This document shows positions 12,622 to 27,384 of a stretch of 64,000 bases of DNA, piece by piece. The notes under the pieces were generated by a model that saw only the letters and a program-made list of their open reading frames with translations, was not told the DNA's origin and did not search any database. Source of the stretch: Polyangiaceae bacterium (GTDB taxonomy: Bacteria > Myxococcota_A > Polyangia > Polyangiales > Polyangiaceae); NCBI GenBank assembly GCA_947475525.1, contig CANJMI010000016.1, positions 1 to 64,000 of the forward strand, in the 5' to 3' direction. Each line of letters opens with the position of its first letter. Within the stretch, counting starts at the first letter, position 1. Made by a program: the position numbers and the translations under genes.

Positions 12622-12651
12622 CTCAGCATAATAAAACGTGGGAATGCTGAG
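12622..12651. repeat. Inverted repeat upstream of the GGDEF gene
   Basis: CTCAGCAT (12622-12629) and ATGCTGAG (12644-12651) form a perfect 8-bp inverted repeat around a 14-base AT-richer loop. It lies between the end of the DUF2878 operon and the GGDEF start. There is no T-run, so it is more likely a protein-binding site or a Rho-assisted hairpin than an intrinsic terminator. Confidence 0.5.
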
Positions 12652-12678
12652 CCAGCCTACGGCGCTCGCTACGCGAGA

Positions 12679-13248: not shown

Positions 13249-13251
13249 CGA

Positions 13252-13365
13252 TCAGCCCAATTGCGCCGCACGTGCCGCGCAGAGGTTTCGAACGACGGGC
13301 AGACTCCCCGCAACAATGGAAAGCATATCCCGGTAGTCGCGTGGCTCCTCGATGACGAGCTTCAT
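13252..13365 (-). CDS. 37-residue coupled small ORF
   Basis: ATG 13365 overlaps the TGA of the peroxiredoxin gene (ATGA) and the frame ends at 13252, three bases before the GTG of the DUF2878 gene. The product (begins MKLVIEEPRDYRDML, ends CAARAAQLG) has an acidic start and an amphipathic helical body with one cysteine. Tight coupling on both sides argues that it is translated. It could also be the shortened remnant of a larger gene. I recognise no family. Confidence 0.5.
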   Translation of the reverse strand: MKLVIEEPRDYRDMLSIVAGSLPVVRNLCAARAAQLG

Positions 13366-13925: not shown

Positions 13926-13937
13926 GGGCGTCCTCTT

Positions 13938-14474
13938 TCACTCGGGGAGGAGAACCGCGTCGATCACGTGGATGACGCCGTTGGAGCACGCGATGTCGGC
14001 TTTCACGACCTTGGCGCCGTTCACCATGACCGCGCCCGCGCTCTGAGAGATTTTCACTTCGGTTCCCTGAACCGTCTTGGCCGCGTTCAAGGTAACGACC
14101 TTGTCCGAGCCAACGAGGCCCGCGACGACGTGGTAGGTGAGGATCCCCTGGAGCTTCGCCTTGTTCTCCGGCGCCAAAAGGCTTTCGAGCGTGCCGGGCG
14201 GCAGCTTCGCGAAGGCCTCATCGGTCGGAGCGAACACGGTGAAGGGGCCAGGTCCCTTCAGTGTATCGACGAGATCGGCGGCCTTGAGCGCGGCGGCCAG
14301 TGTCTTGAAAGAGCCAGCGCCGACCGCGGTATCGACAATGTCAGAGGTGCTCTGAGCGGTCGCCGGGGTGGTGCTCGCCGGGGTGGTGGCCGGCGCCTCG
14401 ATCGTGGCCGCGCCACCGCAAGCGCTAGCGACGAGGGAAAGGAGAAGAGACGGAAGGGTAAAGAGCTTGTTCAT
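13938..14474 (-). CDS. Fasciclin-domain lipoprotein
   Basis: The protein starts [19 protein letters not shown], a lipoprotein signal with Cys19, followed by a short Thr/Ala/Pro linker. Residues ~45-178 form one complete FAS1 domain: [19 protein letters not shown], then [20 protein letters not shown] (the H1 box), LTYHVVAG, and [14 protein letters not shown] (the H2 box). FAS1 domains mediate adhesion or bind small ligands at the surface. It is the first gene of a four-gene leftward operon (fasciclin, Bcp, small ORF, DUF2878) and is divergent from the CarH-like regulator, whose candidate sites lie in the shared 158-base promoter region. Confidence 0.92.
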
Positions 14475-14522
14475 TGGAATCTCCGTGAGTTGGTGTTCAA
14501 ACTACGCGCGGTGTGAGTAGCC

Positions 14523-14539
14523 TTTGTCTAGCTTTTGTC
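14523..14539. promoter_or_regulatory. Direct repeats TTTGTC with 11-bp spacing, candidate CarH/LitR operator
   Basis: TTTGTC occurs at 14523-14528 and again at 14534-14539, exactly 11 bp apart, and the second lies in the near-palindrome TTTGTCAAA. CarH-type MerR proteins can contact DNA repeats with an 11-bp period (family knowledge). The site is ~49 bases upstream of the fasciclin ATG. Confidence 0.45.
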
Positions 14540-14587
14540 AAACCAAGGACGACGAATTTTCGGCGATCGAGCGTCCTAAAGCAGTCC

Positions 14588-14603
14588 GTCAATCCGTATT
14601 GAC
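14588..14603. promoter_or_regulatory. Palindrome GTCAAT-N4-ATTGAC before the CarH-like gene
   Basis: A perfect 16-bp inverted repeat (6-bp arms, 4-base centre) ends 29 bases before the GTG of the CarH-like gene. It contains a TTGACT −35-like hexamer (14599-14604). An autoregulatory operator is the simplest reading. Confidence 0.45.
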
Positions 14604-14632
14604 TAACTTTTGCCGAAGCGTAGCGTCGACGG

Positions 14633-15613
14633 GTGGCCGCTCCGCGCGTAAAGCGCTCCCCAAAACGCACTTCAGGTGCTGAAGGGCCAGGGCTCGCGGG
14701 ATCGACCGCACCAGGCGAGACGCGCTATTCCATCCGGGTCACCTCGCGGCTCACTGCAATCGAACTCGATACGCTTCGAATGTGGGAGAGGCGTTACGGT
14801 TTCCCTCGCCCCGAGCGCACGAGCGGAGGCAGCCGCCTTTACTCCGAGGCAGACGTCGAGATTCTCAGGCTTCTCACGCAGGCGCTGGCCCATGGATACC
14901 GGCCGGGCGAGGTCGTCGGCAAGCCACGCGAGGAGCTATCGAGGCTCGTCCTCGCGGCATCCCAAGCGCCAACCCCGGCTGCGACAGGCACCCCGACGTT
15001 GGCGATGTTTTTTGCGTCTCTCGGTCGAGATGAGCTCGCGCTTGTCCGCGCGGATTTGCGTAAGGCCGCCGTGCTGCTTGGCCCGAAGAGATTTGTGGTC
15101 GAAGTCGCTCACCCGCTCTGCCTTCGTGTGGGTGAGCTGTGGGCGGAGGGAACACTCGAGGTGCGACACGAGCACATGCTGAGCGAGTGCTTGTCCGCTC
15201 AACTTTCTGTCCTTAGGTCCGCGTACGAGGATCGCCCCGGCGCCCCACGCGTTTTGCTGGCGACCTTGCCCAACGAGCGCCATGGCCTTGGTCTCACGAT
15301 GGCCGAAGTCTACCTGGCGGCGAACTACGTCACGCCGATCTTGCTCGGCGTTGACACGCCCGCGGAGCAAATCGTCAAGGCGGCGCGCGCTCACGCTGTC
15401 GATGCCGTAGGACTGCTGGTCACCCAGGCCTCGGATCTCAAGGCAACCAAAACCCACGTTCGCTGGATGCTCGGCGAGCTTCCGCGCCGCGTGCGTATCT
15501 GGGTTGGAGGGAAGGGCGGGACCGAGCTTGGGTTGCGCGACGACGCCGTTCGGATCGTCAGCACCTGGAACGAGATGGACGAAGCGATAGCGACGCTTCC
15601 GCGGGGCCCGTGA
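14633..15613 (+). CDS. CarH/LitR-type cobalamin-binding MerR photoreceptor regulator
   Basis: A MerR winged-helix domain (residues ~32-90, TLRMWERRYGFPRPERTSGGSRLY) is followed by a helical cap and a Rossmann-type B12-binding domain. The cap keeps the Wx9EH motif (Trp170, Glu180-His181) and the B12 domain keeps ExHxxG (Glu215, His217, Gly220), the residues that in CarH hold adenosylcobalamin. By family knowledge it should repress in the dark as an AdoCbl-bound tetramer and release DNA when light breaks the Co-C bond. The start is GTG 14633. It is divergent from the fasciclin-Bcp-DUF2878 operon, its likely target. A second paralog is at 22791. Confidence 0.92.
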   Translation: MAAPRVKRSPKRTSGAEGPGLAGSTAPGETRYSIRVTSRLTAIELDTLRMWERRYGFPRPERTSGGSRLYSEADVEILRLLTQALAHGYRPGEVVGKPREELSRLVLAASQAPTPAATGTPTLAMFFASLGRDELALVRADLRKAAVLLGPKRFVVEVAHPLCLRVGELWAEGTLEVRHEHMLSECLSAQLSVLRSAYEDRPGAPRVLLATLPNERHGLGLTMAEVYLAANYVTPILLGVDTPAEQIVKAARAHAVDAVGLLVTQASDLKATKTHVRWMLGELPRRVRIWVGGKGGTELGLRDDAVRIVSTWNEMDEAIATLPRGP

Positions 15614-15752
15614 TGGGCTTCGATTGGAGGCCACCGCCGGAGTCCGTCGATGAGGGACAGCCGCGCGGCCGCGAAAGCCTCGAGCCCACGGGCAAGCTCC
15701 GGCGATGACAGCGCGCTCAGGCCTCGGAGCCTCCGCCGCACTCTGTGCACGG

Positions 15753-15765
15753 TTTGTTCAACAAA
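15753..15765. repeat. Short palindrome TTTGTT-C-AACAAA in a gene-free stretch
   Basis: The 253 bases between the CarH-like gene and vapC hold no gene I can support. The only structure seen is this perfect 6-bp inverted repeat around one base. It resembles the TTTG/CAAA half-sites before the fasciclin operon, but its role is unknown. Confidence 0.35.
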
Positions 15766-15866
15766 GGTTTTACTGCCGGATCGGGCGCACACGCCCCGAA
15801 CCTACACTAACTTTGTGGCGCCCTTCCGACAGTACAACCCTAAGTTCGTTCGGCAGCCTCTGAGGG

Positions 15867-16268
15867 CTAACTACCTAGTTTCAAGGCAAGAATGCGAGCG
15901 AAGTGGCCGAAATCCTTGTCGGTTGTGAGGACGCTCCAATCACGTCGAATAGCAACGGCGCAGATCAAGAAGTCCACGCTGGAACCCTGAACACCTCGAG
16001 CCCGACAGAGATTCGAGCACGAAGCCGCAGTTTCGTAATCTTCAGTATTTAGCTCAACGTTGGGGAAGGCGCGAAGATGTTCCCGAAGGTGCTCGAACTG
16101 CTCGCTGCTCCGAACACCTGACAGAAGCTCCTGGCGAACCGGTCCAAGGAGTACGGCGCGCCCATCGGCTATCACGTCGGCGAGCAGCGCAACCAGGGGA
16201 GAAGGCGCAGTCTGCCCTCGTCTACGCAGCGCGAGCGACCAGACAGACGTATCGACCAAGACGTTCAA
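15867..16268 (-). CDS. vapC: VapC-type PIN-domain toxin ribonuclease
   Basis: The 133-residue protein is a full-length PIN domain: VLVDTSVWSLALR with the first catalytic Asp (residue 6), a Glu in LGPVRQELLSGVR, then SSVDFLICAVAIR and the last acidic pair in VLTTDKDFGHFARI. VapC toxins cut tRNA or rRNA using Mg2+. Its ATG overlaps the stop of vapB (ATGA), the standard antitoxin-first arrangement. Lower GC and different codon use than the neighbouring genes suggest recent acquisition. Confidence 0.93.
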   Translation of the reverse strand: MNVLVDTSVWSLALRRRGQTAPSPLVALLADVIADGRAVLLGPVRQELLSGVRSSEQFEHLREHLRAFPNVELNTEDYETAASCSNLCRARGVQGSSVDFLICAVAIRRDWSVLTTDKDFGHFARILALKLGS

Positions 16269-16465
16269 GAGCGGCGACGAGCCTTTTTGTAGTCGTACTT
16301 AGGGTCAAAATCCACTTGGCCAAACAGCGCTACGATCTTAACCTGTTTGCGGCGTTGGATGTACTCCTCCAACGCTTCAGTCACGGTCGCCTTCTTCGTG
16401 CGGTGACCACCGACTTGAAGGGCCTCCTCGAGTAGGCCGTCGTCAATCGCGAGGTTTGTAGCCAT
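16265..16465 (-). CDS. vapB: VapB-type antitoxin
   Basis: This 66-residue protein begins MATNLAIDDGLLEEALQVGG, the standard ribbon-helix-helix start of type II VapB antitoxins (VapB5/DUF2191 kind), followed by HRTKKATVTEALEEYIQRRK. The C-terminal VDFDPKYDYKKARRR segment is the usual toxin-wrapping tail. ATG 16465 is chosen because the family begins exactly here and the operator overlaps it. It should bind and inhibit VapC and repress the pair. Confidence 0.93.
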   Translation of the reverse strand: MATNLAIDDGLLEEALQVGGHRTKKATVTEALEEYIQRRKQVKIVALFGQVDFDPKYDYKKARRRS

Positions 16466-16482
16466 GTGTGAAATCCTACACA
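16465..16482. promoter_or_regulatory. vapBC operator (TGTGT-N8-ACACA)
   Basis: TGTGT (16465-16469) and ACACA (16478-16482) form an inverted repeat overlapping the vapB start codon, where a ribbon-helix-helix antitoxin normally binds to autoregulate its operon. Confidence 0.6.
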
Positions 16483-16811
16483 CGCTGCCCGCGCCTGTCA
16501 AGGGCCAGGACATGAAGAGTGTGGAGAGCAAGCGCCGAAAGAACACCGAGAGACCACCCATAAGGCGGCTCGCGTTTGGTCTCCGCCGCACCGCTTTTCC
16601 CCTCCGAATCACCAACTGCCGAGCCTCGCGCGGTCACCTCGAGGACTTCGCCCACCGATGCGGAGGCAATCTTCGTCTTGCTGACGGGCATCGGCACGCT
16701 GCCACCGCTACCCGACGATGTGACGGAAGAAGCTTGGTCGGCCGCGGGCTTCGAGCTGCACGCAAGCAGCGATGCCGCGGCGAAGAGAAGGACTCCAGTA
16801 CGGGGTAGCAT
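16476..16811 (-). CDS. Short lipoprotein, C-terminus apparently replaced at the vapBC junction
   Basis: ATG 16811 begins MLPRTGVLLFAAASLLAC, a lipoprotein signal with Cys18, then a Ser/Gly linker and PMPVSKTKIASASVGEVLEV. After about residue 84 the composition changes abruptly (YGWSLGVLSALALHTLHVLA...) and the stop at 16478-16476 lies inside the vapBC operator. This suggests that the original 3' end was cut off when vapBC arrived and that the present tail is chance coding. It is divergent from the di-haem peroxidase gene. Family unknown. Confidence 0.55.
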   Translation of the reverse strand: MLPRTGVLLFAAASLLACSSKPAADQASSVTSSGSGGSVPMPVSKTKIASASVGEVLEVTARGSAVGDSEGKSGAAETKREPPYGWSLGVLSALALHTLHVLALDRRGQRV

Positions 16812-16970
16812 CGTCGGGGGCTTACTGTCTGCCGCGCGGTTTGTCACGGGGCACCGGAATCACTCCGAAATTTGAGTTGCCGTCGAATGCCGCGACCTCG
16901 CCCTGCATCTCAATCGCTACCCTGACCGCAACGTCAACGGCCCTTCGTTCTGAGGGCCAGGAGCACCATC

Positions 16971-18329
16971 ATGAACTTCCGTCGCCTCGGACGTCTCCCT
17001 CTCGCCGCTCGTCGACAGCACCCACGCGCCACGCACCCTTCGGCGCTGATTTGCGCCGGGATGATGGTCGCCTGGGTTGGGGGATGCCGCGCTCCACTCA
17101 ACGATGCGGGCCTCGACGAGGGCTCGCTCGCCGCCATAGACGAAGACACCGCGCCTTCTATGGAAGGTGGCGAACGGACCTTGGCGCAGCGGAAGAAGCC
17201 CGGCTCGAAGCCGCCGTCGATTCCGAAACTTGGGGAATATGGCGCGCCGCTCGGGGGACTCACCGCTGCCCAACAACAAGATTTTACCGATGGCCTCGAA
17301 GAGTTTCTGAACGAAGAGACGGCGGAAGGGGGCCTCGGACCTATCTTCAACCACACGGGTTGCTTCAAGTGCCACAGCGCTCCCGCGATCGGTGGGGCTT
17401 CGGCGATCAACGTCACGCGGTTTGGCGCCGTAAAGAACGGCGTGTTCGATTCGCTCGACAGCCTCGGTGGATCTCTCTTGCAGGTTTCCGCCATCGATCC
17501 GAAGGCTCAAGAGGTCGTTCCGCCGGAAGCGACGCTGGTGGCGTTTCGTCAATCGACGCCGCTGTTTGGCCTCGGTCTCATCGAGGCGATCGAGGACAGC
17601 ACGATCATCGATGGCGTAAAACGCGCGACCTTGTTCCCAGTTCAAGGCAAGGTGGCGATGGTGCAGGACGTCGTCTCCGATACGTCGCGCGTGGGCCGCT
17701 TCGGCTGGAAGGCGCAGCAAGCGACGCTGCTCGCGTTCTCGGGTGACGCTTACGTAAACGAGATGGGTGTCACGAGCCGGTTTTTCGTTGCGGAGAACGC
17801 CCCAAACGGAAAGCAGAGTGTGCTCGCGCAGTTCGATACGGTGGCCGACCCTGAGGACCAGGTCGACCTCGCAACTGGCAAGGCCGACATCGATCACGCT
17901 GCGGATTTCATGCGGTTGCTCGCGCCGCCCCCGTCGAAGCTTCCAAAGATGGCCGAAGAGGTCGCCGGCAGCGCGTTGTTTCAGAGCTCGGGTTGCGCCG
18001 ATTGCCACACGCCCAGCATGAAGACTGGGAAGAACGTCATCGCCGCGCTGTCGTTAAAAGAGGTGCGTCTCTTCTCGGACCTGCTGCTCCATGACATGGG
18101 GAACCTCGGCGACGGGATCGTACAAGGGCCCGCGGCTGGCTCGCAGATGAAGACGGCACCGCTCTGGGGCTTGAAGACCTCGGCGCCTTACCTTCACGAC
18201 GGTCGCGCGCCCACGGTGGACCTCGCCGTGCGCGCGCATGCGGGTCAGGCGAAGGCGTCTCGTGATCGATACGTTAAGCTTATCGCGACCGAGCGGGCGG
18301 CACTCTTGAAGTTCCTCGATACGCTGTGA
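16971..18329 (+). CDS. Di-haem cytochrome c oxidoreductase/peroxidase-like lipoprotein (DHOR family)
   Basis: The protein has an N-terminal hydrophobic segment with a lipobox-like WVGGC, then two c-type haem sites: CFKCH (near residue 130) and CADCH (near residue 343). Between and after them are the family phrases of the putative di-haem oxidoreductases (PF06537): GLGLIEAI, GRFGWKAQQATLL, LLLHDMGNLGDGI, and KTAPLWGLKTSAPYLHDGRA at the end. The 452-residue length fits. It should act in the periplasm as an electron-transfer or peroxidase enzyme; the substrate is unknown. A Ser/Thr kinase gene follows 73 bases later on the same strand. Confidence 0.9.
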   Translation: MNFRRLGRLPLAARRQHPRATHPSALICAGMMVAWVGGCRAPLNDAGLDEGSLAAIDEDTAPSMEGGERTLAQRKKPGSKPPSIPKLGEYGAPLGGLTAAQQQDFTDGLEEFLNEETAEGGLGPIFNHTGCFKCHSAPAIGGASAINVTRFGAVKNGVFDSLDSLGGSLLQVSAIDPKAQEVVPPEATLVAFRQSTPLFGLGLIEAIEDSTIIDGVKRATLFPVQGKVAMVQDVVSDTSRVGRFGWKAQQATLLAFSGDAYVNEMGVTSRFFVAENAPNGKQSVLAQFDTVADPEDQVDLATGKADIDHAADFMRLLAPPPSKLPKMAEEVAGSALFQSSGCADCHTPSMKTGKNVIAALSLKEVRLFSDLLLHDMGNLGDGIVQGPAAGSQMKTAPLWGLKTSAPYLHDGRAPTVDLAVRAHAGQAKASRDRYVKLIATERAALLKFLDTL

Positions 18330-18402
18330 GCACCACAGAAAACGGCGAGGTTTACGGATAAGGATTCCAAAGAGGATAGCCTGAGCCGCGACGCCTCGAT
18401 GC

Positions 18403-20016
18403 ATGGTACGTGGAGCCATCATGGCTAAGGCGATCAAGCACCGCCGCGCGTCCGAGACCGAGACCGAGACGGAGTCCGTGACGGAGACGCCTGGCCAAGG
18501 GTCTCTTTGCGGGGCCTGTGAGACGCGCTCGACGGAGTCGACCTGCTCGCGCTGTGGAACGCCGCTCGTGCTCGACGGCCACTGGGTGCTCGAGAGGAAG
18601 CTCGGCGAAGGCGGTCAGAGTCGCGTTTATGAAGCCCGGTCGCTCCGTGATGGCGCGCGGGCAGCGGTCAAGGTGATGTCCCTCGACCGGGCGCGCGACT
18701 GGAAGAGCGTCGAGATGTTCGAGCGGTCGGCCAAGGTCCTCGCGAACCTCGAGCACCCGGGCGTGCCGAAGTTCATTGCCTCGTTCCGAGTGGAGGCCAA
18801 CGCGATCCTGCTCTTTTGCCTCGTGCACGAGCGAATCGACGGCGAGACGTTGAAGGCAGCACTCAACCGCGGCGAGCGTTACGACGAAGCGAAAGCGCGC
18901 CGACTTCTGCGCGAAGTGCTCGGTATCCTCCAGTACCTCCACGGGTTCTCTCCGCCGGTGATTCACCGCGATATCAAGCAGTCGAACCTGATGCGGCGCA
19001 AAGGCGGAGGGCTCGTCCTCATCGACTTCGATCTGGTGAGCGACGAAGCCAAGCCGGACGGCGGCTCGACGATCGGCGTAGGCACGTCGGGTTACGCGCC
19101 CATCGAGCAATTGATGGGAGAAGCCGTTCCCGCCACCGACCTTTACGCGCTCGGCATGACGCTGGTCACGTTGCTGTCGCGCAAGGATCCGAGCGCCCTT
19201 CGCGAGAGGGGTGAGCACCGCGTCGACTTCGAGCGTCACGTCCACGTCTCGAAGGACTTCGAGAAGCTCCTCGGCGGGATGCTCGAGCCGGAGGTCGCAC
19301 GGCGATTCCAGACAGCGGACGCCGTGCTCAAGAGCCTCGAGGCGAAGCGGTCTACAAGCAAACCGCGGCGCGCACAGCGGGACGACGCTCCCGCGGAGAC
19401 AGAGTCGGAGCGCCCCCGCATCGTGCCCACGGCACAAGCAAACGTACGCGCAGACATAAGGCAAAACGTAAACAGGCATATCCTTTTTATCATGGTGTTT
19501 ACCGTGGTGTTTTCCGCCGCGGGTTTCATCGTTCAGTGGCTCGCCAGTGGGCTAGGCGACACGGAGAGTCTGCCGCAGCCGCCGCAGCCCACCCCCACCC
19601 CCATCCCCACCCCCATCCCCATCCAAGCGCCTGCGTCGAACACCTTTGCTGCCGAAGAGGACCCGAGCAAGGTCCGTGAGGCGCTCCTCGGCAGACGCTG
19701 GAGCGGCGAGCTCGCAGGCACCCAACTGTCCGTCGTCGTGAACGCGAAAGGCGACAACCTCGAGGCGACCGCGGCCGAACGCGACGGCACGACGCGCCCG
19801 ATGATGACCGCCAGGATCAACGCCACCGGCCTCGTCATCCTCGCTGGAGACTTCGCCGTGCTCGACGTGTCGCATCACCTCAGCTGCTCGGGTGAGCTCG
19901 CCACGGGCGGCACATCGATGCGCGGCACCTGCGCCGACGCCTTGACAGGCAAGGAGGGCACGGCAAAAACGTCGACCCCGTTCACCCTTTACACAACTCA
20001 GGAGAGTACCCAATGA
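18403..20016 (+). CDS. Transmembrane Ser/Thr protein kinase with extracytoplasmic domain
   Basis: A Ser/Thr/Glu-rich N-terminus and a four-Cys zinc ribbon (Cys36, 39, 48, 51) precede a Hanks-type kinase: glycine loop GEGGQSRVYEA, ATP-binding Lys90, HRDIKQSN (Asp190, Asn195), and TSGYAPIEQ. The metal-binding loop is DFD (208-210) instead of DFG, an unusual change. One membrane helix (~360-382) is followed by a Pro/Thr repeat linker and an exported ~110-residue domain with the core RRWSGELAG. A similar pattern appears twice in the next protein, whose ATG overlaps this stop codon (ATGA). It probably senses envelope signals. ATG 18421 is an alternative start. Confidence 0.93.
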   Translation: MVRGAIMAKAIKHRRASETETETESVTETPGQGSLCGACETRSTESTCSRCGTPLVLDGHWVLERKLGEGGQSRVYEARSLRDGARAAVKVMSLDRARDWKSVEMFERSAKVLANLEHPGVPKFIASFRVEANAILLFCLVHERIDGETLKAALNRGERYDEAKARRLLREVLGILQYLHGFSPPVIHRDIKQSNLMRRKGGGLVLIDFDLVSDEAKPDGGSTIGVGTSGYAPIEQLMGEAVPATDLYALGMTLVTLLSRKDPSALRERGEHRVDFERHVHVSKDFEKLLGGMLEPEVARRFQTADAVLKSLEAKRSTSKPRRAQRDDAPAETESERPRIVPTAQANVRADIRQNVNRHILFIMVFTVVFSAAGFIVQWLASGLGDTESLPQPPQPTPTPIPTPIPIQAPASNTFAAEEDPSKVREALLGRRWSGELAGTQLSVVVNAKGDNLEATAAERDGTTRPMMTARINATGLVILAGDFAVLDVSHHLSCSGELATGGTSMRGTCADALTGKEGTAKTSTPFTLYTTQESTQ

Positions 20017-20906
20017 GAGCAACCGAAAGACTCACCGTTTGCGCCGGTTTGGCGACGCTCTTTGGTGTCACGGGCTGCGAAAAGACAGTGGATCCTGCCG
20101 TGCAGGGCCTCGCGAACTTCTCGCAGGTCACCTGGGTCGGCACGGTCGGGACGGCGAAGGCGGAGCTCACGTTCGCGCCCTCTTCCCCAAGTGCCGTCAA
20201 GGCCACGCTCGTCTTTCTGGAACGCGACGAGCCCACGGTCGAAGAGTCGCTCGAAGGTCACATGGTGCGTGCCTCGGCATTCGAGCTTCACGGAACGGCG
20301 GTAAAGAGTCTCGTCGGTGAGGGCGCACCCGAACCCCACATCATCGACCTTGGTACGGTCGCGGACGGAGCGCTCGCGGGCCGCATGCACACGGCGACGA
20401 CGAAAGACTACCCTCTGCGTGCGATCTTCAAACCGGGGACATCCGTGACGAAGCTGCCGACGATCGACGTCGCACGCGCGACAAGCCGCCTCCTCGAGGT
20501 TCGCTGGGAAGGCAAACTCGAAGGCGGCAAGCCCCTGTCGCTCGACACACGCCGTGAAGGGGCGAAGCTCGCGGGCGTGCTGACGCACAGCGAAAACCCG
20601 GCCGAGGGGTTCATTTACGTAACGCGTACCGGGAAGTTCTCGTTCCAAACCCCAGCGTCGCCCGGCGGCGGCGCGGTGAACACGGTGTCGTGCCAAGGTT
20701 CGATCGCCGGCGCCTTCGATGCGCTCAAGGGCGAATGCGAGTTCAAGGCGAGCAAAGGCTTCCAATCTCAGGGCACCACGCTCGCGTTCTCGCTGCGTCC
20801 AACCACGAGTCCGGCCCCTGCGCCGACGGCGAGCGCCAGCACGACAGCCACGGCGAACACGCACGCGCCGCCGCCCCCCGCCGCAAGCACACGAAAACCT
20901 CGATAG
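20013..20906 (+). CDS. Lipoprotein coupled to the kinase, with two kinase-ectodomain-like repeats
   Basis: This protein begins with a lipoprotein signal (LATLFGVTGC, Cys22). Two ~100-residue units follow: one starting near VTWVGTVGTAKAELTF and another near EVRWEGKLEGGKPLSL. Both share the W-x-G-x-[LV] core and the 'A..V......' strand layout of the extracytoplasmic domain of the kinase encoded directly upstream. The tail is Ala/Pro/Thr-rich. The four-base overlap with the kinase gene and the shared domain suggest a partner or ligand-sink role at the envelope. The domain is not one I can name. Confidence 0.75.
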   Translation: MRATERLTVCAGLATLFGVTGCEKTVDPAVQGLANFSQVTWVGTVGTAKAELTFAPSSPSAVKATLVFLERDEPTVEESLEGHMVRASAFELHGTAVKSLVGEGAPEPHIIDLGTVADGALAGRMHTATTKDYPLRAIFKPGTSVTKLPTIDVARATSRLLEVRWEGKLEGGKPLSLDTRREGAKLAGVLTHSENPAEGFIYVTRTGKFSFQTPASPGGGAVNTVSCQGSIAGAFDALKGECEFKASKGFQSQGTTLAFSLRPTTSPAPAPTASASTTATANTHAPPPPAASTRKPR

Positions 20907-20924
20907 CCTTTCGGACGGCAGGTT

Positions 20925-20954
20925 CGCGCGCTTGGCAGGTAGCGCGCGTTTTTT
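20925..20954 (+). terminator. Rho-independent terminator after the kinase-lipoprotein operon
   Basis: CGCGCGC (20925-20931) pairs with GCGCGCG (20942-20948) around a 10-base loop, followed at once by six T (20949-20954). Confidence 0.9.
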
Positions 20955-21505
20955 CGGCGTAGTGACGTCGGTGTGCACCCGATAGGAGTCGGGATGCAAC
21001 CGTCCGACGAACGACGTCCCCGACGCGCTTGCAGTTAAGCTGAATTACTCGACGCTCTTGCCGACACTTCGCGTTCAGCCGTCTGGAAATAATCGCCAGC
21101 GATCGGCGAGGAGCGAGCGAATAAAGGCCCGCGCCCCGGCCGCACCTGGGCCATTGGTTTTTTTGTGGGGCCTCTGTCACCGTGAGTCCATCGGCTGCAA
21201 GGTGGCGCATCAACCCGCATCAACCCGAGTGCATACTCGGCTCCGACCACCTGCAAACGAATGGCTTCTCGGTCGCCGCGCGCTCCACGAGGGTGGAGAA
21301 CATTAAGGACACGAGGAGCGGACCTAGCAACGGAAAGACAGGAAGAGAGCAGGAGGGAGCAGGCGTGCGACGCCAAAAAGGCTTTGTAGAAGTGCTTGAC
21401 GGGTGGCATGCAGTTGTGTGAGCGTTTCTGGCATGACGCCTGACGTGTTCGCGCTCGCTGCGCCGCGCGCGGCGTTCGTACGTATCGTTTGCGGGGAGGT
21501 AGCCT
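20955..21505. other. Gene-free stretch
   Basis: About 550 bases with lower and uneven GC and no open frame of coding character on either strand. It contains a purine-rich run (about 21310-21365). The promoter of the zinc-ribbon gene is presumably near its right end. No RNA gene or repeat was recognised. Confidence 0.5.
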
Positions 21506-21649
21506 ATGAGCTGTGCAGGGTGCGGCGGAATGACGCTGGTGTTCAAGTGGACGTGTACCAACCGGTCGTGTCGCTGGGTGTGGTGCAACGACTGCGCCAC
21601 GGGTTGGTTGTTTCGGTCGTGCCAGCGGTGCGGGAGCAAGTGTTCGTGA
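21506..21649 (+). CDS. 47-residue Cys-rich zinc-ribbon protein
   Basis: ATG 21506 follows an ideal ribosome-binding site (GGGGAGGT, 21493-21500). The product starts MSCAGCGGMTLVFKWTC and ends CQRCGSKCS, with nine cysteines, including CxxC pairs at residues 3/6, 27/30 and 39/42, and several Trp. This points to one or two zinc ribbons in a very small protein. The next ORF starts 11 bases after its stop, so the two probably form an operon. No family recognised. Confidence 0.7.
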   Translation: MSCAGCGGMTLVFKWTCTNRSCRWVWCNDCATGWLFRSCQRCGSKCS

Positions 21650-21659
21650 AGGCGTGCTT

Positions 21660-22103
21660 ATGGACTCCGAATTGCTTCGTCACGGGTGCGTCGTGAACTT
21701 CGATGCTGATTCGCGCAAAGCGTGGCTCGAGGCTGGCGGCTTCATCGCCGGGGGCGACGGACTCAGCGACACCGAGCGCGACGAGCTCTCCGCTTCGGCG
21801 GCGGGCCCCGAGCTTTCGCGGGAGGAATGCGACACGATCCTCGCGCGGGGCGCGGCCGCCAAGGCGTTGCCCGCGCACCTGCTTGCGGCGCTGGCCTCGA
21901 ATGATGTCGCGCTGCGGCTCGATATCCTCGCCAACATCGTGCAGGGGGTCAGCGTGGACGGGCTGAGTGAAGCCGAGCGCCTGCGCTTCTGCGAGGTCGC
22001 CGAGGCTGCGTTTGGCGCGGCTCGGGTCGACGCCGTCGTTCGGTACTGCCTCGCCGCGAGCGAAGTCGTCCGGCTGCGCGCTGAGGTCGTGCTCGGGACT
22101 TAG
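21660..22103 (+). CDS. Small helical protein, TerB-like pattern, function unknown
   Basis: ATG 21660 (GTG 21654 also possible) opens a 147-residue, mostly helical acidic protein. It has two repeated EF-hand-like or TerB-like phrases: GDGLSDTERDEL in the first half and VDGLSEAERLRF in the second, the latter following LLAALASNDVALRLDILANI. The 'aDG.s..E...l' pattern is typical of TerB/tellurite-type helical domains, which bind metals in some proteins. It follows the Cys-rich mini-protein closely. Assignment is tentative. Confidence 0.6.
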   Translation: MDSELLRHGCVVNFDADSRKAWLEAGGFIAGGDGLSDTERDELSASAAGPELSREECDTILARGAAAKALPAHLLAALASNDVALRLDILANIVQGVSVDGLSEAERLRFCEVAEAAFGAARVDAVVRYCLAASEVVRLRAEVVLGT

Positions 22104-22153
22104 CGGGCGTCATCGGCCGCGCGAGATACAAACGTGCGTTCTGCACGGAGGTC

Positions 22154-22624
22154 ATGGAGGCGTTCGTTGCCTCTTTGACGACGGAATTAAGGCATGCTCG
22201 GGCGAGCGCAGTTGCACACGAGCGTGCGACGCCAGGAGCTGTCGTGGCGAGAGTTATTTTCAAGGTCGTGTTCGCGCTCTTCTTCATCTTGGGCGGCGTG
22301 AACCATTTTGTGCACCCCGGCTTCTACCTGCCGATGATGCCGGACTACCTGCCGAGTCACGTGCTCTTGGTGCAGCTGAGCGGCGTCGCCGAGGTGCTCC
22401 TAGGGGGCGCACTGCTCATCCCGCGCCTCGAGCGCCTCGCGGCCTGGGGGATGCTCGCGCTGCTCGTCGCGGTCTTTCCCGCGAACCTCCACATGGCGCT
22501 GCACCCGGACCGCTTCCCGACGATCGCGCCCGCGATGCTCTGGCTTCGGCTCCCGCTTCAGCTGCCGCTCCTCGCATGGGCGTGGGCCTACAGGCGAAAC
22601 AACGGCGCAATCCCGACTTCGTGA
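22154..22624 (+). CDS. DoxX family membrane protein
   Basis: About four membrane helices start after a 34-residue polar N-terminus. The DoxX hallmarks are FALFFILGGVNHFVHPGFYL, SGVAEVLLGGALLIPRLERLAAWGMLALLVAVFPANLHMA, and the ending QLPLLAWAWAYRRN. DoxX-like proteins occur in stress and redox contexts; the biochemical function is not settled. If translation begins at a later start the protein would be shorter, but ATG 22154 is the only ATG before the first helix. It lies ahead of the second B12-type regulator with a 163-base gap. Confidence 0.85.
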   Translation: MEAFVASLTTELRHARASAVAHERATPGAVVARVIFKVVFALFFILGGVNHFVHPGFYLPMMPDYLPSHVLLVQLSGVAEVLLGGALLIPRLERLAAWGMLALLVAVFPANLHMALHPDRFPTIAPAMLWLRLPLQLPLLAWAWAYRRNNGAIPTS

Positions 22625-22742
22625 GGCGCTGCGCGGGCGAGGTAGAGCTCGACGCGGATTCACCGAGAGCCTGCGTGGCTTGGGGTGGCTCTCGCACGTC
22701 GTCATGGCAGCCTGCTCGAGTTCTCAACACGGTGGTTGATTC

Positions 22743-22768
22743 GGTCGTTTTAAGCTTAAAAAACGACC
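22743..22768. promoter_or_regulatory. Strong palindrome before the second B12 regulator
   Basis: GGTCGTTTT (22743-22751) and AAAACGACC (22760-22768) are perfect 9-bp inverted arms around AAGCTTAA. A further CGTTTTTTT lies at 22781-22789. The site ends 22 bases before the start codon of the MerR-B12 gene, in an otherwise GC-rich region, so it is a strong candidate operator/promoter element for autoregulation. Confidence 0.65.
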
Positions 22769-22790
22769 AAATCGTACTATCGTTTTTTTG

Positions 22791-23603
22791 ATGGGAGCAG
22801 CCACCATGCTCACGACGAGGGCAGCCGCCAAAGCTGCGGCGGTAGCGCCTTCCACCATCAAGCGCTGGGCCGACCAAGGCATTTTGTCGTTCTCGCGGAC
22901 GGCGGGAGGTCACCGCCGGTTCGAGCGCTTCGCCATCGAGCGACTGCTTCGCGAGCAACCGGGCTCGGTCTCCTCGGGCGACTCGGTGCCGAGCGCCTGG
23001 GTCCGCTGCCTGGCGAACGCAAGACGCCATGAGATCGACAGTCGGCTCCTCGAGGCGAAAGCGAGGCTCGGGTCTTGGTGGCGCGTCGCCGATGAGCTCG
23101 CCTTGGCCCTGGCCGAGATGGGCAACCTCTGGGAGCGCGGGCGGCTGACGATCGCCGACGAGCACGTCGCCTCCGACGCATTGGTCCGAGCGCTCGCGCG
23201 CGTCGGTGATGCGTTACCGATTCGCCTCGATGGGCCGACATGTCTCCTCGCGTGCGCGGGCGAGGACGAGCACACGCTCGGACTGTCACTCGCCGAGTTG
23301 TGCGTGCGCGAGCTCGGTTGGACGCCGATGTGGCTCGGTCGTCGCACGCCGATCGGCGAGGTGCTCCGGTTGGTGCGAGGCGGCCAGGTGGCGATGGTGG
23401 CGCTGTCGGCGTCCGCGCTTCTCGGTGACGAGCAGGCCTTGCGCGCGGTCACCGACGACGTAGGCGCGGCCTGCAAAGAGCGCGGGGTAAGTCTGCTACT
23501 CGGCGGCGCAGGTGCATGGCCCTGCCAGCCTTTTTACGGCATTCGGGTGACTTCCTTCGCGGATTTCCACCGCTGCCTCACTCCAAAAATGGAACGCCCA
23601 TGA
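22791..23603 (+). CDS. Second CarH/LitR-type cobalamin-binding MerR regulator
   Basis: The N-terminus is an excisionase/MerR-type HTH (VAPSTIKRWADQGILSFSRT, GGHRRFERFAIERLL). The helical cap has Wx9EH (Trp in NLWERGRL, then DEH; W115, E125-H126 counted from 22788). The B12 fold has DxHxxG (DEHTLG) and AELCVRELGWTPMWLGRRTP, as in AdoCbl-dependent light sensors. It should repress in the dark and release in light. ATG 22791 is used; ATG 22806 is an alternative directly before the HTH. It is the likely regulator of the lipocalin-epimerase-CPBP-carotenoid oxygenase genes downstream. Confidence 0.88.
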   Translation: MGAATMLTTRAAAKAAAVAPSTIKRWADQGILSFSRTAGGHRRFERFAIERLLREQPGSVSSGDSVPSAWVRCLANARRHEIDSRLLEAKARLGSWWRVADELALALAEMGNLWERGRLTIADEHVASDALVRALARVGDALPIRLDGPTCLLACAGEDEHTLGLSLAELCVRELGWTPMWLGRRTPIGEVLRLVRGGQVAMVALSASALLGDEQALRAVTDDVGAACKERGVSLLLGGAGAWPCQPFYGIRVTSFADFHRCLTPKMERP

Positions 23604-23655
23604 CCCCATCGCGGCCGTACTCGAGAGAGCTCGGTGCTCGATGAGGAGGAGTCCC

Positions 23656-24234
23656 GTGAAGCGAAGTTTCACATTGCTCTGTGCGCTCGTCGCTTCCGGA
23701 TGCGCCGCCAGCACGACGGAACGGCTGCGCCTGCCGCCCCTTCAAACGGTCGCGCACGTCGACCTCTCGAGCTACGTCGGGACCTGGTACGAGATCGCCA
23801 ACTTCCCACAGAGCTTCCAGCGCGGCTGCACCGCCACGACCGCCACTTATACGGTGCGCGCCGACGGCGACATCGATGTGCTCAACCGCTGCCGCAAAGG
23901 CTCCCTCGACGGGACGGAGAAGTCTGGGCTCGGACGTGCCCGCGTCGTCGACCGCGCCACAAACGCGAAGCTCGAGGTGAGCTTCTTTCGCCCGTTCTGG
24001 GGCGACTACTGGATCATCGACCTCGCCGACGACTACTCGTACGCCGTCGTCGGCCATCCCGGTCGCGACTACCTCTGGATCCTCGCCCGCACGCCGACCA
24101 TGCCCGAGGCGACCTACCAGAGTGTGGTCACGCGCCTCCAGGCCAAAGGCTACGAGACCGCCCGGCTCATACGAACGCTGCAGATCGCAGAACCTTCCCC
24201 TAAAGGCGGAGCTCCTTCGCCGGAAAGAAGCTGA
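23656..24234 (+). CDS. blc: Bacterial lipocalin (Blc-like) lipoprotein
   Basis: The start is GTG 23656: GAGGAGG at 23643-23649 is an ideal ribosome-binding site for it, whereas the in-frame ATG 23641 would place that site inside the gene. The product begins MKRSFTLLCALVASGC (lipobox Cys16) and has the lipocalin signature GTWYEIANFPQSFQRGC, then ATYTVRADGDIDVLNRC, KLEVSFFRPFWGDYWIIDL and YLWILARTP. Lipocalins bind small hydrophobic molecules. With a carotenoid oxygenase in the same run, an apocarotenoid ligand is a reasonable guess. The TGA shares its A with the ATG of the epimerase gene. Confidence 0.93.
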   Translation: MKRSFTLLCALVASGCAASTTERLRLPPLQTVAHVDLSSYVGTWYEIANFPQSFQRGCTATTATYTVRADGDIDVLNRCRKGSLDGTEKSGLGRARVVDRATNAKLEVSFFRPFWGDYWIIDLADDYSYAVVGHPGRDYLWILARTPTMPEATYQSVVTRLQAKGYETARLIRTLQIAEPSPKGGAPSPERS

Positions 24235-25214
24235 TGGCAGGGCTCCAGCCAACACGTTCGCTGCTCTTGACCGGCGCGACAGGTTTCGTCGGTGGTGCCG
24301 CGAGACTCGCGCTCGCTCGCGAGGGCTGGCGCATACGGTGCCTGACGCGAGACGCAGCGCGGGCAAAAAAGCGCGAACCTACACTGGACTGGGTGCAGGG
24401 CGACGTGGGGGATCCGGCCTCGTGTGCACGGGCGCTCGAGGGCTGCCAGGCAGCACTCTACCTCGTGCACGGGATCGGCGAGGGCGACGATTATCACGGG
24501 AACGAGGTGAAGGCCGCAGCCACCTTCTCAAAGGCGGCGGCCGCAGCTGGCGTCGAACGCATCGTGTACCTCGGCGGCGTCGCGCCGGTCGGCACGGGCT
24601 CCGATCACCTGCGCAGCCGGCTCGACGTAGGCGAGGCGCTGCGTGCCGGTTCGGTGAAGACCATCGAGCTGCGCGCAAGCATGATCGTCGGGCATGGCAG
24701 CCTCAGCTGGCTCATCGTCCGCGACCTGACGGCCCGCTTGCCGTTCATGGTCCTGCCGCGGTGGCTCAAGTCACGCACTCAGCCGGTCGGGATTGACGAT
24801 GTCGTCGTGGCGCTGTTGGGGGCTCTCGAGCTGCCTCTCGGGGCGAGCGCCTGGTTCGATATCCCCGGACCGGTCACGCTCTCCGGAAAGGAAATCCTCA
24901 ATGAGACCGCGGGCGTCATGGGCCTTCGTCACCCGCGCATGATCGAAGTACCTTTTCTGTCGCCGCGCTTGTCATCGCATTGGGTTCGCTTCGTCACGCG
25001 TGCACAGTGGTCCGTCGCACGTGAAGTCGTGGTCGGCTTGACCGAGGATCTGCTCGCGCGAGACGACCACTTCTGGGAGCTCATCGGCCATCCACATCGC
25101 TGCTCCTTTGCCGAGGCGGCCAAGCGGGCTCTCGATGCCGACGGCGAGCATCGTGTCCAAGGAGCCTGGGGCGCCATCGAGCGCGCTCGGGGGCTCTCGA
25201 AGAGTTCGTTATGA
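24234..25214 (+). CDS. NAD(P)-binding epimerase/NmrA-like SDR protein
   Basis: This 326-residue atypical SDR begins with the Rossmann GATGFVGGAARLAL motif (TGxxGxxG), followed by WVQGDVGDPAS, YLVHGIGEGDDYHGNEVKAA and VERIVYLGGVAP. The Tyr-x3-Lys pair is absent at its usual place, as in NmrA/complex-I-NDUFA9-like members. It ends with a helical part containing HWVRFVTRAQWSVAREVV. The family reduces or isomerises varied substrates or acts as a redox sensor. The same kind of gene accompanies lipocalin genes in LitR-controlled clusters of other bacteria (family knowledge). Overlaps at both ends indicate an operon. Confidence 0.85.
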   Translation: MAGLQPTRSLLLTGATGFVGGAARLALAREGWRIRCLTRDAARAKKREPTLDWVQGDVGDPASCARALEGCQAALYLVHGIGEGDDYHGNEVKAAATFSKAAAAAGVERIVYLGGVAPVGTGSDHLRSRLDVGEALRAGSVKTIELRASMIVGHGSLSWLIVRDLTARLPFMVLPRWLKSRTQPVGIDDVVVALLGALELPLGASAWFDIPGPVTLSGKEILNETAGVMGLRHPRMIEVPFLSPRLSSHWVRFVTRAQWSVAREVVVGLTEDLLARDDHFWELIGHPHRCSFAEAAKRALDADGEHRVQGAWGAIERARGLSKSSL

Positions 25215-25855
25215 ATGGCGACGCTTTGGAAATCCTGACCATCAAGTCCCGCAGTACGACCCTCGCGTTCGCGTCCATCGTCGGGTGGCTTGCCGCTGCC
25301 TCGATGGCGGGACCACTCGGTATCTGGCTTAGCGTTGGCGGTGCGGCGCTTGTGCTCGGCATCGCCGTCCTGCTGTTTCAACGCCCGGCGTCGAAGGCGC
25401 TGTTGCGGCCGAGGGCGTGGCTCGTTCTCCTTGGCGCAGCCGCGGGAGGCGTGATGGCCGTCGCCACCTACCTTCTCTACCCACCTTTCTCGCGCATTTT
25501 GCCATTCATCGTGACCGACACCGCGCGGCTGTACGCGGCGTTTCGGGCGCCGTCGTTCGTCGTCGCGTCGGTCGCGCTGGTCCCCATCATCCTCGGAGAG
25601 GAACTGGTCGGGCGAGGCGTCGTTCAGACGTCGCTGGTCGAGCGGCTTGGAGCTTGGCGAGGCATCCCGCTGGCAGCCGTGGTGTACGCGCTGGTGCACG
25701 CGCCTCTCGGCTCGCCCGTGCTGGTGGCGGTCGCGTTCTTCTGCGGGCTCGCGTGGGGCATTATGCGCGCCATGACAGCGAGTCTCGTACCCACCTTGGT
25801 GGCTCACCTGCTGTGGGACGTGCTCGTCCTGCTCTGGCTGCCGCTGGACACCTGA
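25211..25855 (+). CDS. CPBP family intramembrane metalloprotease
   Basis: About six membrane helices carry the CPBP (Abi/CAAX protease-like) motifs: GEELVGRGVVQ (EExxxR), YALVHAPLG (second motif His), and TLVAHLLWD (third His/Asp motif). It should cleave a membrane or prenylated peptide, but the substrate is unknown. ATG 25211 overlaps the epimerase stop (ATGA), so it belongs to the same operon. The carotenoid oxygenase gene begins 62 bases after its stop. Confidence 0.9.
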   Translation: MNGDALEILTIKSRSTTLAFASIVGWLAAASMAGPLGIWLSVGGAALVLGIAVLLFQRPASKALLRPRAWLVLLGAAAGGVMAVATYLLYPPFSRILPFIVTDTARLYAAFRAPSFVVASVALVPIILGEELVGRGVVQTSLVERLGAWRGIPLAAVVYALVHAPLGSPVLVAVAFFCGLAWGIMRAMTASLVPTLVAHLLWDVLVLLWLPLDT

Positions 25856-25917
25856 CCTAGGGCCCTCGACACGGCGTAGTTGAGCGCAAGCGAGCGAGAC
25901 GATACAACGCTGTAGCC

Positions 25918-27384
25918 ATGCTCTCTCGTCGTAGCTTTCTTCAGCTTGCGGGTCTCAGCGGTGCCGGCTTCGTCAGCGGCGTGCCGCTCCTCGGTGGTTG
26001 CCGCACTCAAGCCGTCGATTCACCGCTGACCGAGGCGCTTCCGGACGATCCGAGCAAGCCGTGGTGGCTGCGCCAAAACTACGCGCCGGTCGGCGAGAGC
26101 GAGGCGCACGACCTCGAGGTCGTCGGCGCCCTGCCGCCAGCGCTCGCGGGGCTGTATCTCCGCAACGGCCCCAACTCGCTCGGCGTCGACACGTCCCACT
26201 GGTTCCTCGGCGACGGCATGGTCCACGGCGTGCGGCTCGAGGGAGGCAAGGCGCCGTGGTACCGCGCGCGCTACATCAAGACCGAAGCACTCGGCGCAAC
26301 CGGCGACGCACTCGCGCCACCGACGCTCACCCACCATCAGGCCAACACCAGCATCCTCGTGCACCAGAAGCGCGTCCTCTGCCTCGAGGAGGTCGGCTTG
26401 CCTTACCAGATCTCGAGCGATGACCTCTCGACCATCGGCCCGTACGACTTCAGCCAAAAGCTGAAGACGGCGATGACGGCGCACCCGAAGCTCGATCCGC
26501 TGACCGGCGAGCTGTTGTTCTTCGGCTACGGTGTGTTCGAACCGGCGCTCACCTATCACCGCGTCGATGCCAAGGGCGTGCTGGTGCAGAGCGAGAAGAT
26601 CCCGCTGCCGAAGGCGGTGATGATGCACGACTTCCAGGTCACCGCGACACACGTCGTGTTCATGGACCTGCCGATCCTCTTCGACATCGATCTGGCGATC
26701 TCAGGCAGCGGCTTTCCCTTTCGCTGGGCCCCCGAGAACGGCGCGAGGATCGGTGTGATGCCGCGCACGGGCACCGCGGCCGACGTGAAGTGGATCGAGA
26801 TCGAGCCGTGCTTCGTGTTTCACACCTGGAACGCGTTTCACGATCCGAAAAACCCGGCGATCATCCACCTCGACGCCATCCGCTACACGAGCATCTGGGA
26901 AAAGAATTCCAGCGATTTTAACACCGATGGCCGGGCGCATCGCTTCAGCATCGACACCGCCGCGGGCAAGGTCGGGCTGACGCAGCTCGACGACCACATT
27001 GCCGAGTTCCCACGCATCAGCCCAAGGCAGCAGGGCGGCGTTTATCGCTATGGCTACTGTCTCTCGACCGATGGCGTCGTGGCGGCGGACGGCTCGCTGC
27101 CCGCCTTCAATCACGTGGCGAAATACGACCACCAGACCGGCAAGCGGCAGCTCCACGCGCTCGCGGCCGGGCAGGAACTCGATGAGGCGATGTTCGTCGC
27201 CGATCCCGCTGGTAAGGGCGAAGACGACGGCTGGCTTCTCGCTTACATGTTCGATCACGCCGACAATCGTAGCCAGCTGCTCGTCCTCGACGCGGCGGAG
27301 ATCTCCGCGCCACCTGTCGCACGGGTGCTGCTGCCTCACCGCGTGCCCCACGGCTTCCACGGCGCCTTCGTCCCCGCCAGCTGA
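25918..27384 (+). CDS. Carotenoid cleavage oxygenase, Tat-type signal
   Basis: The N-terminus is a twin-arginine signal (SRRSFLQLAG) followed by a lipobox-like LLGGC, so export is predicted. The body is a seven-blade propeller enzyme of the RPE65/CCO family: LYLRNGPNSLG near the start, and the four Fe(II) histidines in TAHPKLDPLTGE, MMHDFQVT, FHTWNAFHD and HGFHGAF (C-terminus). It should split carotenoids with O2 to apocarotenals. The 488-residue length is normal. Position in the light-sensor run suggests light-induced expression; a periplasmic or membrane-bound site would be unusual. Confidence 0.93.
   Translation: MLSRRSFLQLAGLSGAGFVSGVPLLGGCRTQAVDSPLTEALPDDPSKPWWLRQNYAPVGESEAHDLEVVGALPPALAGLYLRNGPNSLGVDTSHWFLGDGMVHGVRLEGGKAPWYRARYIKTEALGATGDALAPPTLTHHQANTSILVHQKRVLCLEEVGLPYQISSDDLSTIGPYDFSQKLKTAMTAHPKLDPLTGELLFFGYGVFEPALTYHRVDAKGVLVQSEKIPLPKAVMMHDFQVTATHVVFMDLPILFDIDLAISGSGFPFRWAPENGARIGVMPRTGTAADVKWIEIEPCFVFHTWNAFHDPKNPAIIHLDAIRYTSIWEKNSSDFNTDGRAHRFSIDTAAGKVGLTQLDDHIAEFPRISPRQQGGVYRYGYCLSTDGVVAADGSLPAFNHVAKYDHQTGKRQLHALAAGQELDEAMFVADPAGKGEDDGWLLAYMFDHADNRSQLLVLDAAEISAPPVARVLLPHRVPHGFHGAFVPAS

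Follow-up and report, generated by a model that had tools for sequence, protein, structure and literature searches.

Two MerR-type regulators of separate lineages as probable adenosylcobalamin light switches beside photo-oxidative genes in a Polyangiaceae genome

Two MerR-type regulators with a B12 module, MerR1 (14633–15613) and MerR2 (22806–23603), lie about 8 kb apart in the window analysed here, a stretch of 64,000 nucleotides from a Polyangiaceae bacterium, a myxobacterium that is probably non-photosynthetic. The genes and predicted sites around them are as follows.

12679–13248, minus strand: DUF2878 membrane protein (Pfam, 103 bits)
13362–13925, minus strand: Bcp/PrxQ-type peroxiredoxin with a lipobox-like LFGAC signal (Pfam AhpC-TSA, 128 bits)
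13938–14474, minus strand: single-domain fasciclin (FAS1) with a lipobox-like signal, a conserved MerR1 partner (Pfam, 140.6 bits)
14514–14541, minus strand: fasciclin promoter with a predicted operator of the CarH type, TTGACA-N5-TAGACA-N5-TACTCA (11/12 matches)
14599–14626, plus strand: probable promoter of MerR1 (TTGACT-N16-TAGCGT) plus one more half-site, the third copy of the repeat family
14633–15613, plus strand: MerR1, CarH-clade MerR/B12 regulator (Pfam, phmmer, alignment, tree)
22738–22773, no strand assigned: predicted MerR2 operator, dyad GATTCGGTCGTTTT-N8-AAAACGACCAAATC, with 14-nt arms 93% complementary
22775–22780, plus strand: probable -10 element TACTAT of the MerR2 operon (conserved in L096, L097 and L098)
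22806–23603, plus strand: MerR2, BldC-like HTH with a B12 sensor module, CtMerR-like (Pfam, profile search, tree, model)
23641–24234, plus strand: Blc-type lipocalin with a lipobox-like VASGC signal (Pfam Lipocalin_2, 168 bits; Blc structure matches)
24234–25214, plus strand: NAD(P)-binding SDR/epimerase (Pfam)
25211–25855, plus strand: CPBP (Rce1-like) intramembrane protease-family protein (Pfam)
25918–27384, plus strand: carotenoid oxygenase of the RPE65 family (Pfam, 394.5 bits)

The original prediction of two MerR regulators carrying the Wx9EH and D/ExHxxG motifs was borne out by the Pfam domains and by the near-invariance of these residues among relatives, and the sites it had proposed at 14523–14603 and 22743–22768 are both present in the sequence. 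Its neighbouring genes (fasciclin, Bcp, DUF2878, lipocalin, epimerase, CPBP and carotenoid oxygenase) were recovered with the exception of ORF37, as the ORF listing contains no ORF of at least 90 aa between Bcp and DUF2878 that fits as a gene. An Rfam search of 12–28.5 kb gave no matches.

MerR1 contains a MerR winged HTH, a four-helix and a Rossmann B12-binding module, with MerR_1 (46.5 bits), B12-binding_2 (26.2 bits) and B12-binding (36.1 bits) all above the Pfam cut-offs. Its sensor motifs are GELWAEGTLEVRHEH (Wx9EH) and ERHGLG; W170, E180 and H181 were invariant in the alignment, and W, E, H, the ligand H and a later G...P were invariant across 10 MerR1/CarH sequences. The match to full-length TtCarH was strong (phmmer, E = 8e-29). 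Like CarH of Thermus thermophilus and the Myxococcales, MerR1 has the same domain order, Wx9EH, ExHxxG and a recognition helix, RMWERRY, that matches the RxWERRY motif. It is unlike CarH in forming a separate clade, in its neighbouring targets (fasciclin and peroxiredoxin, not crt genes) and in having no His after the Trp (the bis-His position). Its GxxH signature reads NERH, without the published Gly, and in the cobalamin motif ERHGLG and GG are present, while the SxT/V element reads LVT, without the classic Ser.

The predicted operator on the fasciclin promoter comprises three 11-bp TnnACA repeats, the first overlying the -35 and the third the -10, resembling the tandem 11-bp TnnACA repeats over -35/-10 that form the CarH-type operator (PMC9304148). 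Its 11/12 matches were equalled by 1 of 2000 shuffles. Ten relatives conserved the predicted operator at 10–12 of 12 matches, each of the eleven regions being equalled by 0–2 of 2000 shuffles, and exact 11-bp TGTC pairs occurred in 6 of 10 regions versus 0.05 expected. The divergent MerR1/fasciclin promoter pair resembles crtI–carH of Sorangium, and L009 carries TTGACT-N16-TATACT where the MerR1 promoter sits. Scanning with a generic sigma70 model returned none of the promoters proposed for MerR1, fasciclin and MerR2, all of which were proposed on the basis of conservation. With at most one mismatch, the three-repeat operator is found at only four places in the genome. A genome-wide MerR1 regulon was considered and rejected: the 17-bp TGTC pair occurs at four sites, the other three within ORFs, and the three other sites of the 28-bp three-repeat pattern precede unrelated or unknown genes.

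Fasciclin adjoins the MerR1 orthologues in L009, L160, L076, L079, L163, L164, L165 and L086, and in relatives the pair is often accompanied by GTP cyclohydrolase II. A carotenoid-binding (AstaP-like) role was rejected, with 52 bits to AstaP versus 145 bits to 1w7d (beta-Ig-H3/fasciclin), the best single-domain bacterial structure match; FAS1 of a cyanobacterium did not bind carotenoid (PMC10147662). The Bcp/PrxQ gene starts 12 bp after fasciclin; its product scored under the cut-off of NCBIfam PrxQ, and its LFGAC signal was identified by eye. Bcp and DUF2878, initially listed with the MerR1 genes, are not conserved MerR1 neighbours in relatives: a Bcp-type peroxiredoxin next to fasciclin was not found in the relatives' loci compared, and DUF2878 also occurs in MerR2-linked clusters of the planctomycete MAGs L111, L112 and L122. 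The RpoE-type photo-oxidative response of Rhodobacter has similar target types, namely fasciclin (RSP_1409) and cyclopropane/furan-fatty-acid genes, but is driven by a singlet-oxygen-responsive sigma factor, whereas the present locus has a B12-type sensor instead. Under photo-oxidative stress, RSP_1409 of R. sphaeroides rises by 2.8–4.5 log2 (PMC7074977).

For MerR2, ATG 22806 is the more likely start than TTG 22788, because GGGAG lies 8 nt upstream and the orthologues begin with MLTT. HTH_17 (31.9 bits) and B12-binding_2 (26.2 bits) exceeded their Pfam cut-offs, B12-binding (24.8 bits) stayed under its own, and HTH_BldC also matches. The sensor motifs are GNLWERGRLTIADEH (Wx9EH) and DEHTLG, and W, E, H, the ligand H and a later G...P were invariant in 8 MerR2 sequences. 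The light signature of B12 photoreceptors (SignatureFinder; PMC11796333) comprises GxxW, EH, GxxH and GxxxP; MerR2 has GxxW, EH and GxxxP, and its GxxH reads ExxH (EDEH). The closest solved relative is CtMerR of Chloracidobacterium thermophilum (PDB 8JBS/8JBT; 8jbs as profile, E = 4e-31), which MerR2 joins in the tree with 100/100 support on a long branch, and the best PDB matches of the predicted structure (pLDDT 91) are CarH and CtMerR. MerR1 lies in the CarH clade, and the two regulators belong to different lineages. Like CtMerR, MerR2 joins a BldC/HTH_17-like DNA-binding domain to an AdoCbl sensor module resembling that of CarH, and has Wx9EH with no His at the bis-His position, but it has ExxH for GxxH. 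We did not class it as CarH, because its helix reads IKRWADQG, not RxWERRY, and its predicted operator is a dyad, not TnnACA repeats. Against the NCBIfam CarH equivalog NF052513, MerR1 scored 121.5 bits and MerR2 46.6 bits, both far under the 400-bit cut-off, and therefore neither was assigned to that family. Both retain the full B12 module with its Rossmann B12-binding domain, unlike class II LitR (PplR/PmlR of Pseudomonas), which keeps the four-helix bundle alone and can use a LOV partner (PMC9758184). The likeness to class II LitR lies in its multiple paralogues per genome and its light-induced photolyase and furan-fatty-acid genes.

The core of the MerR2 dyad occurs once in the genome. The dyad is retained in L070/L096 with a symmetric base change (GACGgTTT/AAAACGTC), TCGTACTAT is identical in L096 and L097, and TACTAT is kept in L098. 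In the present genome the dyad extends to a stable hairpin followed by T7 and could be the terminator of the upstream DoxX-like gene. We disfavour this reading, since L096 and L097, whose upstream gene is divergently oriented, still have the dyad and TACTAT but not the T-tract. Lipocalin directly follows MerR2 in L097 (80%) and L099 (67%). SDR copies (73–74% identical) and CPBP counterparts (50–51%) are found in L098 and L106, there within MerR2 operons in the case of the SDR, and more distant ones (SDR, 47–54%, adjoining MerR1-clade genes; CPBP, 33–36%) in L162 and L166; a phage search for the SDR gave nothing useful. The carotenoid oxygenase has an apparent Tat signal and lipobox, all four iron-ligand His regions, and matches to carotenoid 9,10-dioxygenase structures (E = 2e-64). 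It was not seen in the related MerR2 operons compared, so we regard it as a local addition.

More broadly, MerR2 relatives adjoin photolyases (L073 and L097; photolyase-like in L098 and L106), crt genes (crtE in L070; crtC–crtD in L074, L075 and L082), furan-fatty-acid-type genes (in planctomycetes) or lipocalin/SDR/CPBP. The conserved predicted operators and recurring partner genes support the earlier view of both proteins as AdoCbl-type sensors beside photo-oxidative and envelope genes. These partner genes make it probable that MerR1 and MerR2 repress photo-oxidative modules as AdoCbl-based light sensors, and both wirings recur in other bacteria.

Judging from the sequence comparisons, we consider it quite probable that the two are AdoCbl light-sensor repressors that evolved separately and each work as an independent local switch. 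We infer AdoCbl binding, oligomerization, light response, direction of regulation and target function as follows. In the dark, each sensor would bind AdoCbl, oligomerize and occupy its own operator, MerR1 on the three 11-bp TnnACA repeats that overlie the fasciclin promoter and close to the MerR1 promoter, MerR2 on the GGTCGTTTT dyad immediately before the -10 of the operon that it heads. Light would break the Co–C bond, dissociate the oligomer and open the promoters; CtMerR is tetrameric in darkness and becomes monomeric in light (PMC11796333). Release of MerR1 would turn on fasciclin with Bcp and possibly DUF2878, and release of MerR2 its own gene with lipocalin–SDR–CPBP–carotenoid oxygenase, the outputs being photo-oxidative defence of envelope and lipid and carotenoid handling.

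It seems unlikely that both proteins instead sense cobalamin or AdoCbl metabolically, or act independently of B12 like CarA and are relieved by another protein, with an input other than light. CarA retains its B12 motif yet acts without B12 (PMC9304148), and the Gly of GxxH is replaced in both proteins and the Ser of SxT/V in MerR1; but CarA has lost the Trp of Wx9EH, which MerR1 and MerR2 both keep, strongly conserved, and the partner genes in relatives point to light damage, not B12 metabolism. The same replacements and the absent bis-His position could also mean that one or both are degenerate, still folded and autoregulating only, with AdoCbl photochemistry lost. This is quite improbable, since GxxH is highly variable among MerR2-family proteins, 30 of 35 of which keep the remaining light residues, the Gly of GxxH makes a main-chain contact only (PMC11796333), and the clearly degenerate members L124, L128 and L141 lack W, E and H altogether. 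Most improbable is joint control of a common regulon by a single dual-sensor island, for which the 8-kb distance and the Acidobacteria MAG L098 speak (MerR2-type and CarH-type sensors separated by 6.3 kb and surrounded by photolyase-like and furan-fatty-acid-type genes), but against which stand the different lineages of MerR1 and MerR2, the other lineage of the L098 CarH-type sensor, the differing operators (TnnACA repeats at four places versus a GGWCG dyad found once) and the unrelated genes in between (VapBC, di-haem peroxidase, Ser/Thr kinase, DoxX).

The genome survey, the neighbourhood comparison and the closest relative likewise do not support the proposed island as a unit: among the surveyed genomes of the order, only the window's own had strong matches to both sensors, and in the closest relative (G001) the MerR2 cassette is missing after DoxX at the equivalent site. 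The island is therefore not an evolved unit, and the closeness of the two genes looks accidental. Nor are two linked sensor-type genes an undescribed arrangement, as a carA–carH tandem, a CarH-like paralogue next to another B12 MerR, is already known in the Cystobacterineae (PMC9304148).

The two regulators share the genome with a third B12 sensor, a canonical CarH inside the crt cluster on another contig, which probably controls carotenoid synthesis; a PduO-type adenosyltransferase family member is also encoded. The Sorangiineae genomes examined in PMC9304148 have one CarH each, in contrast to the three B12 sensors here. A tentative and rather unlikely extension is that three sensors use three DNA codes, the crt-linked CarH for pigment, MerR1 for envelope fasciclin and the CtMerR-type sensor for light-gated carotenoid cleavage and a carrier in the envelope, i.e. 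light-controlled apocarotenoid production.

Repression of carotenoid synthesis is the chief known role of AdoCbl photoreceptors, and comparative genomics links two of their lineages to other photo-oxidative modules in Myxococcota, Acidobacteria and Planctomycetes MAGs. The main value lies in predicting, for the CtMerR class, an operator and a set of target genes, neither of which we found in the available part of the published description of CtMerR. With three sensors in one genome whose operators appear to be separate, the splitting of B12 light sensing into private channels becomes testable, and both operator/sensor pairs are candidates for independent green-light switches.

The two regulators under study lie on contig C16 of a 5.15 Mb genome and share one domain plan:

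14633-15613, + strand: MerR1, an HTH for DNA binding, then a two-part B12 module
22806-23603, + strand: MerR2, an HTH for DNA binding, then a two-part B12 module

For MerR2, a TTG at 22788 is a less likely start than 22806, and its named relatives are mostly Myxococcota MAGs. The cobalamin motifs claimed in the original prediction were borne out, MerR1 carrying Wx9EH as GELWAEGTLEVRHEH with ERHGLG, and MerR2 carrying GNLWERGRLTIADEH with DEHTLG; the neighbour genes and the two sites that it named were also correct. Against the light signature of cobalamin photoreceptors, GxxW, EH, GxxH and GxxxP (PMC11796333), MerR1 (GELW, EH, NERH, GVDTP) and MerR2 (GNLW, EH, EDEH, GRRTP) each match three of four elements, both lacking the Gly that precedes the ligand His in GxxH. 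This Gly varies freely across 35 MerR2-family sequences, 30 of which retain W-EH-H-G..P, and G167, W170, E180, H181, H217, G239 and P243 are invariant in the MerR1/CarH alignment. The His after Trp is missing from MerR1 and MerR2, as it is from CtMerR, which monomerises in light despite its absence (PMC11796333). The best PDB matches of the MerR2 structure model (pLDDT 91) were TtCarH and CtMerR. Since the genome has a PduO-type Cob_adeno_trans gene, it can plausibly make AdoCbl.

The fasciclin strand shows TTGACA-AAAGC-TAGACA-AAGGC-TACTCA at 14541-14514, three 11-bp repeats of TnnACA, the operator element of CarH (PMC9304148). The first repeat of this predicted MerR1 operator doubles as a consensus -35, and the third occupies the -10 position; MerR1 bound here would cover the promoter and thereby repress. 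Ten relatives carry this three-repeat site with 10-12 of 12 positions matching, a fit that no more than 2 of 2000 shuffles equalled in each case, and exact TGTC pairs at spacing 11, the dominant spacing, occur in 6 of 10 regions (shuffle mean 0.05, maximum 2). These counts ignore relatedness, although the L079, L163 and L085 proteins are only ~46-54% identical to MerR1. The MerR1 promoter (14599-14626) holds a second predicted element. Elsewhere, L195 1501-1528 (G000:C4:173123-173150) is a perfect three-repeat TnnACA operator-like site; the ORF that starts ~20 bp downstream encodes a Cys-rich protein of 310 aa with no Pfam match and is possibly a further CarH-type target.

Fasciclin adjoins MerR1 orthologues in genomes G051, G172, G040, G013, G153, G152, G154 and G009, and GTP cyclohydrolase II follows the pair in several relatives. 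Bcp and DUF2878 were not found beside the relatives' MerR1 orthologues and are thus local additions in the window. The window fasciclin is closest to 1w7d among single-domain bacterial structures, and photo-oxidative stress strongly induces a fasciclin of R. sphaeroides, RSP_1409 (PMC7074977). Lipoprotein signals were recognized by eye in fasciclin, Bcp, lipocalin and carotenoid oxygenase (Tat type in the oxygenase). In G172, three consecutive fasciclin genes (L160 3204-4827) are divergent from the closest MerR1 orthologue.

The predicted MerR2 operator is of a type other than TnnACA:

22738-22773: GATTCGGTCGTTTT-N8-AAAACGACCAAATC, abutting the -10 TACTAT

Its core occurs once in the genome. 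The arms show a symmetric change, to GACGgTTT/AAAACGTC, in the orthologue from the same genus (L070/L096), and TCGTACTAT is identical between L096 and L097. Among 33 MerR2-family members, the 7-mer AATCGAC is found in 11 regions, where no 7-mer of any shuffle exceeded 7, and CGWCCAA likewise in 11, versus 1.4 expected. The dyad, which with extended folding and the T7 tract would form a terminator-like hairpin in the window, could instead be a terminator; however, the T-tract is not conserved in relatives, and the dyad is kept where the upstream gene is divergent.

Among MerR2 relatives, lipocalin comes directly behind the sensor gene in L097 (80%; photolyase upstream on the opposite strand) and L099, and in the Acidobacteria MAGs L098 and L106 SDR (73-74%) and CPBP (50%) precede a photolyase-like gene. 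Other MerR2 relatives lie near crtE (L070), crtC-crtD-like genes (L074/L075/L082), or photolyase and uvrA (L073), and the planctomycete ones near DUF1295, desaturase, FAD oxidoreductase and DUF1365, with DUF2878 in three cases. Because SDR-CPBP also lies near MerR1-clade genes in G162 and G157, this module moves from one type of sensor to the other. The carotenoid oxygenase, for which 9,10-dioxygenases are the nearest structures, is an addition to the MerR2 operon peculiar to the window.

The further proposal that the sensors, 8 kb apart as given by the assembly, form a dual-sensor island found no support, and the locus is probably not such a unit. No other order-level genome searched (97 for MerR2) paired strong MerR1 and MerR2 matches, and unrelated genes intervene: a VapBC pair, di-haem peroxidase, kinase, two unassigned ORFs and a DoxX-like protein. 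G001 is 98% identical over the kinase region and differs after DoxX; it has no MerR2, and its lipocalin-SDR lies elsewhere with no CPBP behind. An assembly gap there covers the MerR1 stretch, so absence of MerR1 is unproven. The one parallel is L098, which has two sensors 6.3 kb apart, one of MerR2 type and one of CarH type with the full signature; by tree, the CarH-type sensor is of another lineage than MerR1. That region (9456-20775) is a two-sensor photo-oxidative cluster, with two B12-type MerR genes, a photolyase-like protein, CMAS, DUF1295, desaturase, FAD oxidoreductase and DUF1365. In the window, the VapBC-type toxin-antitoxin pair (PIN domain and VapB antitoxin) occupies 15867-16615 (- strand). 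A dispersed repeat of ~115 bp (20998-21115), matching no Rfam family, recurs whole or in part on C18, C33, C19 and C54 of this genome as well as on many G001 contigs, and 32605-33240 is a low-complexity coding repeat of tandem PPGGAPPGGGGYG type whose other frames contain long shadow ORFs.

A further sensor lies on another contig of the genome, its neighbours named by reading translations:

C11:18665-19528: third B12 MerR, after crtY-crtE-crtI-crtB and beside crtC-, GT2- and crtD-like genes

It carries the full light signature (GEGW, EH, GDLH, GPNLP) and represents the canonical, crt-linked CarH of the genome; G003 and G001 hold related copies that are likewise linked to crt genes. In the tree, MerR1 falls in a family-wide clade (support 96/98) apart from the crt-linked CarH, and MerR2 groups with CtMerR (100/100), a join that carries a warning as CtMerR is a long branch. 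One CarH/A homologue per genome was reported for the Sorangiineae examined (PMC9304148); the B12 MerR sensors of this genome represent three lineages rather than two. We infer, the biochemistry included, that MerR1 and MerR2 are quite probably light repressors of the AdoCbl type that act through private operators on photo-oxidative and envelope modules.
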